Virus record (IMG/VR): IMGVR_UViG_3300030098_004824
Location: 1-64,000 of that record
Strand: one strand, 5' to 3'
DNA length: 64,000 nucleotides
Source: a virus
Positions 3,600 to 4,806 of the stretch are shown piece by piece. Each line of letters begins with the position of its first letter. Position 1 is the stretch's first letter. The translations under genes were made by a program, and so were the position numbers. The notes beneath the pieces were generated by a model. The model saw only the letters and a program-made list of their open reading frames with translations. It made no database searches and was not told where the DNA came from.

Positions 3600-4001
3600 A
3601 TGAAAACAGCACTTGCCGTATTGTTGGCACTCACACCTGTTTCTACACTTGCTGATGAGTATCAACCAGGTTATTCTTCTTCTAAGTCTTGTTACAGATC
3701 AGAATATAGAGAAGAATATATTCCAGGAACGGAGGATCAACCTGGATATGTAAGATCTTGGAAGGAAACTATTGAGTTCCCTTGTGATAGAAATAGAGCA
3801 ACAATTACAAGACCAACAAGAACAGTAGTAGAAAGACACTATGAGGTTGATGATAATGATTGTACTGATGGGAAAGTTGCTGGTGGTATTTTAGGTGGTG
3901 GTCTTGCTGCTGCTATATCAAGAGGAGATGGTAGATGGTGGGCAATTCCATTAGGTGTTGTTGCTGGTAGTGCTATTGGATGTGATGCTGCTGGAGGTTA
4001 A
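3600..4001 (+). CDS. Exported glycine-zipper protein
   Basis: A 133-aa protein with a clear Sec signal peptide: MKTALAVLLALTPVSTLADE, hydrophobic core then an A-x-A-like site near residue 18. The mature part is Tyr/Arg-rich with three cysteines and ends in a glycine-rich hydrophobic segment (KVAGGILGGGLAAAISRGDG, then WWAIPLGVVAGSAIG), typical of glycine-zipper envelope proteins. It would act in the host periplasm or outer membrane during infection; superinfection exclusion is one possible role (inference). The first 29-bp repeat follows its stop by 5 bp. Confidence 0.7.
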   Translation: MKTALAVLLALTPVSTLADEYQPGYSSSKSCYRSEYREEYIPGTEDQPGYVRSWKETIEFPCDRNRATITRPTRTVVERHYEVDDNDCTDGKVAGGILGGGLAAAISRGDGRWWAIPLGVVAGSAIGCDAAGG

Positions 4002-4006
4002 ACAAA

Positions 4007-4035
4007 GGGGGATCGCCTAAAGTGTTCCAGTAGTG
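4007..4035 (+). repeat. 29-bp intergenic element, copy 1
   Basis: First of nine gap-free copies. GGGGATCG at element positions 2-9, TAAA at 12-15 and GT at 18-19 are intact; the downstream segment is TCCAGTAG instead of the T/A-rich consensus. It lies just after the exported protein gene and ahead of the structured non-coding region. Confidence 0.85.
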
Positions 4036-4480
4036 AGAAACAGTTGAGGGTCAAACTACTCTGACAGTTTTGAGAGGGATATGTGGTTCTACTGCCCGAA
4101 CATTCCAAGATTTCCTATATCCACATTAGTGCGAAGAAATGGTTATCTTATTAAGATCTCCTATACCAACACGAAGTTGAAGAAATGGTTATCTGATTAG
4201 TAGGGGTTCAGGTGTAAGCGATTCCCAGTAGGTAAATTTGGGCATATAGGTGAAACCTATGTCGATGCCCCACTCCCTCTCAAACAAGAAGCAGAGACAT
4301 GACGTTTGATTAAAATGACTTACCCCTCAATGTTTCTCCCACTAATTTGGGCAAGGATCTATGGTTGTCTCTGTTCAGCAGAGAAATTACGTCCTGTAAG
4401 TCCCACACACAAAAACGAGGAGATGGATGTGCCTCTGGGATCGCAACCCAAGAAAGAACTAACATCCGCTAGCTTTTTTA
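4020..4480 (+). ncRNA. Candidate structured RNA, about 460 nt
   Basis: No convincing ORF covers this stretch before 4492; the frame open from 4306 is not protein-like until MAYHHEW. The sequence is less AT-rich than its surroundings and full of complementary segments. AGTAGT 4030-4035 pairs with ACTACT, enclosing TTGA-GGG-TCAA. ATGTGG and CCACAT flank a 30-nt interior. GGGC(AT)...GCCC at about 4239-4273 encloses ATAGGT-GAA-ACCTAT. TCTCTG-TTCAG-CAGAGA lies near 4367-4383. AAGAAATGGTTATCT occurs twice. The segment ends near a T-rich run at about 4474-4490. Transcription could start at the copy-1 element. Class unknown. Confidence 0.5.
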
Positions 4481-4491
4481 TTATTTTTTCA

Positions 4492-4662
4492 ATGGCATAC
4501 CACCATGAATGGAGTCAATCTTATTTTAATGGATTGACGTTTGAAGAACACCACATCAATAATGAGTGGTTTAATGGCACATTGTCAATGTTAAAAGATG
4601 ATGGTATATTATATGTACCAGTTCTTGACAAAGAATTTAACAGACAAGGTGAGGAAGTATGA
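4492..4662 (+). CDS. Small hypothetical protein
   Basis: A 56-aa ORF starting at ATG 4492 (MAYHHEWSQSYFNGLTFEEH...). It is acidic and aromatic-rich, with no known domain. There is no evident Shine-Dalgarno, only a T-rich run before the ATG. Its TGA overlaps the ATG of the next gene (ATGA at 4659), supporting both. Confidence 0.6.
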   Translation: MAYHHEWSQSYFNGLTFEEHHINNEWFNGTLSMLKDDGILYVPVLDKEFNRQGEEV

Positions 4663-4781
4663 CTGAAAAACATTTTATTAACAAAACTGATGAAATGATT
4701 GAAGATTTCATCGAAGAATGTGAAAAGGAAGCATCAAAATTAGAAGTCACAGTTGACTATTATCTTGCCGAGTTTGTTTGA
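4659..4781 (+). CDS. 40-aa acidic helical protein
   Basis: MTEKHFINKTDEMIEDFIEECEKEASKLEVTVDYYLAEFV: strongly acidic, likely one or two helices. It starts in an ATGA overlap. Its last codons and stop lie inside the terminator hairpin, with the TGA in the loop. Function unknown. Confidence 0.6.
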   Translation: MTEKHFINKTDEMIEDFIEECEKEASKLEVTVDYYLAEFV

Positions 4782-4797
4782 CAAACTCGGTTTTTTT
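4768..4797 (+). terminator. Strong Rho-independent terminator
   Basis: CCGAGTTTG (4768-4776) pairs perfectly with CAAACTCGG (4782-4790) across a 5-nt loop, followed by seven T (4791-4797). It overlaps the 3' end of the 40-aa gene and the downstream promoter. Confidence 0.92.
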
Positions 4798-4806
4798 CTT
4801 TATAAT
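4778..4806 (+). promoter_or_regulatory. Consensus sigma-70 promoter embedded in terminator
   Basis: TTGACA (4778-4783), exactly 17 bp, then TATAAT (4801-4806): full consensus for host RNA polymerase with its main sigma factor. The -35 lies in the loop and 3' arm of the terminator. The first gene served begins at 4832. An early transcript is likely. Confidence 0.88.

Follow-up and report, generated by a model that had tools for sequence, protein, structure and literature searches.

Upstream of two small open reading frames (ORFs) in a virus related to the Prochlorococcus myoviruses P-SSM2 and P-TIM68, we identified a structured RNA leader that appears to be assembled from separate domains. It lies in a 64,000-nucleotide stretch, analyzed as a whole (the window), of a 77,556-base virus record. 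Comparison with related loci shows both the helices and the modules; it also shows that the modules nest within one another, change order and stand in front of small ORFs. On this comparative basis the leader is a composite in which module F encloses module X, X encloses module A, and A encloses a 46-nt tandem duplication, followed by modules B and C (Table 1; the module names A, B, C, D, E, F, H, X and others were coined in this analysis). The MFE fold of positions 4033-4345 also gives F around X around A.

The locus reads best as a promoter box (4007-4032), the leader, a 56-aa ORF, a 40-aa ORF and a terminator (4767-4791), in that order. As for manA, wcaG and glnA, the features of a 5' UTR were found together, namely promoter box, leader, ATG (4492) and terminator, and the spacing in relatives agrees. 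An earlier note on this DNA had proposed a single RNA of about 460 nt, recalling ROOL or GOLLD and ending at a T-rich tract. We find instead a mosaic of separable modules that forms the 5' part of a transcript with small ORFs, and the terminator comes behind these ORFs. The T-rich tract is present but is not a terminator and sits just 5' of the ATG; the unit ends at 4767-4791. A perfect sigma-70 consensus promoter (TTGACA-17-TATAAT, 4778-4806) overlaps this terminator. The upstream 133-aa ORF (3600-4001) matches phrog_767, labelled cAMP phosphodiesterase; Pfam gives only a glycine zipper and the PHROG label looks doubtful.

Table 1. Features of the leader transcript, in window coordinates
Feature	Position	Strand	Basis or remarks
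Phage promoter-like box P (GGGGGATCGCCTAAAGTGT...)	4007-4032	+	Repeated upstream of other window ORFs; start inferred near 4033
Structured leader block	4033-4473	+	Between the end of the 133-aa ORF (4001) and ATG 4492
Module F, outer stem: GAGAAACAGUUGAGGG (4035-4050) with CCCUCAAUGUUUCUC (4324-4338)	4035-4338	+	MFE fold, offset-tolerant test
Module X, in F: CUCUGACA...GAAGCAGAGACAUGA	4059-4302	+	20 contexts; in relatives nested in F or A
Module A, in X: stem 4072-4086 with 4270-4281	4072-4281	+	Covariation, 26 copies; model match 67.8 bits
Module A, inner parts: long-range CUACUG/CAGUAG; core GUUCAGGUGUAAGCGAUUCC (4206-4225); terminal hairpin (4240-4270)		+	
46-nt unit, two tandem copies in the variable arm of A	4107-4198	+	36/46 identical; source of the 15-mer
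Module B: AAGGAUC..UACGUCCU and hairpin CUCUG-UUCAG-CAGAG	4350-4403	+	Covariation, 32 copies; model match 90.8 bits
Module C: putative pseudoknot GAGG/CCUC and GGAUGU/ACAUCC, plus hairpin	4417-4467	+	Hairpin covaries, 48 copies
Short uORF in C (MCLWDRNPRKN*), GAGGAG before it	4427-4462	+	Open in 48/48 distinct copies
Palindrome GCTAGC abutting the 3' end of C	4468-4473	+	Perfect palindrome in 93/95 copies
U-rich stretch before the start codon (T-rich tract 4474-4489)	4474-4491	+	Sequence
56-aa ORF (MAYHHEWSQ...)	4492-4662	+	Starts at ATG 4492; no PHROG or Pfam match
40-aa ORF (MTEKHFINKTDEM...)	4659-4781	+	phrog_33387, E 6e-12, function unknown
Intrinsic terminator of the leader unit	4767-4791	+	11-pair stem, then T run

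The odd base composition claimed for this non-coding block is borne out: its GC content is 0.428 (4037-4475) against 0.337 for the window, and 1.6% of 440-nt windows have a GC content as high or higher. The folding energy of the whole block is unremarkable (z -1.27; 13 of 100 shuffles fold equally well). Had folding energy been the only measure, the block would have been set aside; it was the relatives that rescued it. The evidence for its structure is comparative and not energetic.

In order to assess covariation, we aligned distinct copies of four modules. For module A we used 26 of 47 distinct regex matches, leaving out those without a 5' strand of their own, those with another arm and near-duplicates. 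Its 27 pairs were formed in 99.3% of the alignment cells, with 10 doubly changed pairs and a covariation score of 0.290 (shuffled 0.125 +/- 0.010; slides at most 0.109). Module B (32 of 66 copies, thinned for redundancy) was 98.6% paired with 5 doubly changed pairs, and scored 0.352 against 0.184 (slides at most 0.097). For module C with its hexamer, all 48 copies were aligned; 99.5% of cells were paired, 6 pairs were doubly changed, and the score was 0.311 against 0.078 (slides at most 0.063). Module H, an H-type pseudoknot, was represented by 23 of 41 copies, near-duplicates and copies with shorter loops being left out, and gave 99.1% paired cells, 6 doubly changed pairs and 0.430 against 0.177 (slides at most 0.097). 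None of 500 shuffles attained the covariation score in any of A, B, C or H; these shuffles ignore relatedness, for which the slides correct partly. As many doubly changed pairs as observed arose in 7 (B), 83 (C) and 104 (H) of the 500 shuffles, and in none of the four modules did the count of further pair types exceed that of the shuffles. Read from these alignments, the compensatory changes within helices show selection on RNA shape.

The putative pseudoknot helices of C, GAGG/CCUC and GGAUGU/ACAUCC, are invariant across copies, so that no covariation signal is possible. We searched for diverged copies of C in which these helices covary: 47 of 53 structural matches were canonical and the other 6 look like chance. 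Run on 69 related loci, the C model matched only L291 and the divergent L331. This divergent C (L331:1379-1435, minus strand) has a shortened linker, the palindrome AGATCT and the uORF MCLVGRNY. In the 48 distinct copies of C, the uORF peptide varies along with the hairpin.

Tested in fixed register over 19 rows, the outer stem of F gave 4.89 pairs, a non-significant result (shuffled mean 4.59, maximum 5.21); the strands sit in different registers. An offset-tolerant test, devised after this outcome was seen, gave a mean run of 6.35 against 4.74 (17 rows), which none of 1000 shuffles reached.

These results also settle several local claims. The proposal of a new structured RNA holds, given strong covariation in relatives and no Rfam match (none at gathering score in the window, and none even at E up to 10 in the block). 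Two of the checks suggested in the note, the Rfam covariance-model search and the structural alignment of homologous loci, thus agree with it: in the alignments the helices of A and B and the hairpin of C covary. The helix GGGC..AGGU-GAA-ACCU..GCCC is real and corresponds to helices 5 and 6 of module A, and UCUCUG-UUCAG-CAGAGA to helix 3 of module B; both covary in relatives. The two copies of the duplicated AAGAAATGGTTATCT (4134-4148 and 4180-4194) are identical, as part of the 46-nt tandem unit. The candidate promoter is a repeated box (4018, 5399, 11680, 13177, 14432 and 16692, plus three looser copies). The block is neither tRNA nor tmRNA, ARAGORN finding 0 genes in the 64-kb window.

The modules recur widely in related phages. 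A blastn search of phage records placed pieces of the block, in differing orders, in P-SSM2, P-SSM5 and single-cell marine viruses. Pattern scans of IMG/VR found C in at least 119 stretches, B in 111 and A in at least 119, and a context-blind k-mer search returned 44 distinct contexts for B, 37 for A, 30 for B-C, 20 for X and 17 for E. In relatives, the variable arm of A is occupied by B, D, N, Q, R, K or X, or it is a simple loop of 10 nt. At least two complete two-sided modules occur in 122 of 346 annotated blocks, and all 122 are free of crossing; some module tokens are spurious matches to coding DNA, chiefly in the 53 blocks where E5 stands by itself. A direct case of reshuffling is given by P-SSM2 and P-SSM5, which taxonomy places in one species; their leader flanks are 99.1% (2,371 nt on the 5' side) and 96.1% (3,280 nt on the 3' side) identical. 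In P-SSM2 module B follows F, whereas in P-SSM5 it lies within F, so that B and the 3' half of F are swapped (L006:2371-2556 vs L007:2491-2632).

We surveyed 37 records, of which 34 are from uncultivated viruses and 3 are named; A is found once in 21, B in 17, C in 13 and E in 11, and none of them occurs twice in any. Since these records are mostly fragments, and many entered the set through an exact core match, the absence of a module from a record means little. The module cores in them have zero mismatches except in one copy of E. Two copies per contig do occur elsewhere: B in L124, L144, L183, L219 and L223, A and C in L103, and C in L174. Compared with 84,980 bacterial and archaeal species, the core of A had one exact match, in Siphonobacter, which is about what we estimate for chance; with this as its sole match, the module family looks phage-borne. 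Module H is also found in the Synechococcus phages S-B05, S-H68 and S-B43. In S-B05, six tRNAs and a manA RNA, unannotated there, lie directly 3' of module H (L348:1250-2140; record positions 159704-162152).

On the 3' side of the leader, 80 of 87 distinct cases have an ATG, opening an ORF of at least 35 codons, 21-29 nt after the end of C. No such ORF begins within 200 nt of the last module in 10 of 213 blocks, several of which are false token matches. At the 5' side, box P lies upstream of modules A or F in relatives. Of 67 F copies, 46 have a hexamer resembling a -10 box 8-9 nt 5' of the stem; of 96 A copies, 34 have one 9 or 7 nt 5' of GAGRG and 45 have none at the expected distance, some of the latter being internal or behind a P box. 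The -10-like boxes thus often put predicted transcript starts at the outer stem. The window has nine P-like boxes. Behind five of them (10258, 11680, 13177, 14432 and 16692) a stem begins no more than about 5 nt from the inferred start (z -2.8 to -4.0), and these stem-loops are apparently further, different 5' leaders; three of the nine have no strong 5' stem. For the box at 4018, that of the leader itself, the 120 nt that follow the inferred start give z 0.4 on their own, since the strands with which they pair are found further 3'.

The downstream genes are diverse, with 195 ORFs falling into 42 clusters that share no pathway. The 56-aa ORF belongs to a cluster of which, among the ORFs downstream of blocks, all 11 members follow module C. 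Seven downstream proteins were scanned: five had no Pfam match, one matched DUF7717 and one is ArdA-like antirestriction. The ArdA-like ORF (L008:3203-3607) lies directly 3' of a module-C leader and matches an anti-restriction PHROG (E 8e-30), Pfam ArdA falling below the cut-off. The family of PSSM2_070, phrog_1987, has no known function. None of the seven scans pointed to a sugar, exopolysaccharide, nitrogen or photosynthesis function. The lack of a pathway among the downstream genes speaks against a metabolite riboswitch.

The hexamer after module C changes while remaining palindromic. In 95 copies we counted GCTAGC 47 times, CACGTG 13, CCTAGG 13, CTATAG 12, CCATGG 6, and TCTAGA and GCATGC once each; the two remaining copies, CCTTAGG and CCATTGG, are palindromes with one central base. 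At other offsets (-20 to +29) the number of palindromes is 0-22, the 22 being at offset +2, within GCTAGCTA. The hexamer tends to track the downstream gene family, for instance CTATAG before MPTAST in 8 of 9 cases. Pairing with a cis partner was considered and dropped: the hexamer recurs within the same leader in 1 of 95 cases against 4.25 expected. Because a hexamer palindrome without a loop cannot fold on itself, its variation points to pairing between RNA molecules; a cryo-EM paper on OLE and GOLLD reasoned in the same way from palindromes that change yet remain palindromic (PMC12286853). Recognition of the palindrome as DNA is a possible alternative.

Our preferred reading, put forward tentatively and with doubt slightly outweighing confidence, is that the block is a cis-acting 5' leader that seals the end of the mRNA and shields it from host RNase E while keeping the ribosome site single-stranded. 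Transcription would start in the outermost stem (F or A) or 1-3 nt before it, placing the 5' end within a helix. Such an end would hinder both pyrophosphate removal and 5'-end-dependent attack by RNase E, and phage mRNA would outlive host mRNA, which is degraded. Compact modules would continue to about 25 nt before the ATG, leaving only the U-rich ribosome landing site single-stranded. The palindrome after C would pair with the same palindrome on a second transcript; this dimerization of leaders is the most distinctive prediction. As a rule a genome has one copy of each module, for which loss of repeats by recombination could be the reason. Support for this reading comes from position, joined by general background. 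A 5' hairpin stabilizes mRNA and impedes RppH (PMC3997798). When P-SSP7 infects Prochlorococcus MED4, RNase E increases, and antisense RNA is proposed to shield the phage transcripts (PMC9692554). Protection of mRNA may differ between phages, and for the P-SSM2 type we infer it. The conservation of the cores beyond what end-sealing needs and the usual single copy count against simple end-sealing and suggest something more specific. Also contrary to the reading are the unremarkable folding energy of the block and of its first 120 nt, the three P-like boxes with no strong 5' stem behind them and the A copies lacking a -10-like hexamer. A broader picture, possible but doubtful, is that of a cyanophage RNA construction kit, with domains present about once per genome, plugged into each other's loops and still able to fold, and with leaders that dimerize through gene-linked palindromes.

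Two serious rivals remain. The modules may bind a metabolite or a phage or host protein and control translation or termination, much as riboswitches or ribosomal-protein leaders do, with C (Shine-Dalgarno-like GAGGAG, start codon, uORF) as the expression platform. We judge such a regulated leader rather unlikely, even though it fits the invariant cores, the pseudoknot-like modules, the near-fixed distance of C from the ATG and the conservation of GAGGAG and the uORF start, both of which the putative GAGG/CCUC pairing would hide; manA, a known cyanophage cis-regulatory RNA, also lies close to module H in S-B05. What weighs against it is the absence of a common pathway among the downstream ORF families, the uORF peptide, which is not conserved, and the nesting of modules, which one aptamer with one expression platform does not explain. 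Alternatively, the block could be a trans-acting structured RNA, perhaps cut from the leader, of which one copy of each module is needed and the location is indifferent. The near-exact cores, the single occurrence of A, B, C and E in records that are mostly fragments and often core-selected, and covarying palindromes like those of OLE and GOLLD (PMC12286853) would agree with this. The end of the block has no terminator, the spacing to the start codon is tight and the contigs with double copies noted above are contrary to it, and we consider it unlikely.

A further explanation, which we find very unlikely, is that the modules are mobile or selfish cassettes with little function, spread by recombination or an unknown nuclease, the palindrome being a DNA junction or DNA-binding site. 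Nested insertion, the many distinct contexts of A and B and the swap between P-SSM2 and P-SSM5 are what one would expect of such cassettes, but the compensatory changes in helices show selection on RNA shape, and the palindrome varies and does not match one recognition site.

Structured leaders of cyanophages are already known. The RNAs manA (RF01745) and wcaG (RF01761) are structured and lie in probable 5' UTRs of genes of T4-like cyanophages (PMC2864571), and the block resembles them as a structured RNA in the likely 5' UTR of a cyanophage gene. It differs in that the downstream ORFs are mostly small and unknown and in that its modules nest and reshuffle. No Rfam match to manA, wcaG or glnA was found in the window, and among 16 related loci only manA was found, in L348 beside module H. 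Like GOLLD and ROOL, the block is phage-linked, large and multi-helical, and its changing palindromes resemble those of OLE and GOLLD (PMC12286853) as a pattern, not as family membership. Unlike these RNAs, of which ROOL and GOLLD form homo-oligomeric cages, it appears to be an mRNA leader and not a free RNA, its module order is not fixed, and its dimers are predicted; its palindrome lies at the 3' end beside a helix, whereas those of OLE and GOLLD lie in a loop. The likeness to ROOL and GOLLD that the earlier note had seen did not extend to the Rfam models, which matched neither the window, the block (E up to 10) nor the 16 related loci. As for the tRNA-island neighborhood of ROOL and GOLLD, there is no tRNA in the window, and module H alone occurs at a tRNA cluster (S-B05). 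Stabilizing 5'-terminal stem-loops of the ompA/papA type are a further comparison, with ompA as an example. Such stems stabilize mRNA (PMC3997798), and the 5' end of the block would lie in or near a helix; unlike in that type, the outer stem of the block encloses hundreds of nucleotides of conserved, interchangeable domains. Searching titles and the beginnings of abstracts, chiefly in openly accessible literature, we found no published description of these modules. The nested and exchangeable architecture may turn out to form a separate class.

Shuffling of RNA domains, with one inserted inside another, has rarely been seen on this scale. If the construction-kit reading is true, these leaders would be an RNA domain-shuffling system comparable to protein domain shuffling. 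The palindromes make a sharp prediction of mRNA dimers, which is testable since both P-SSM2 and P-SSM5 are available in culture. If the leaders protect or organize phage mRNA, this would help explain how cyanophages preserve their transcripts when host RNase E increases.
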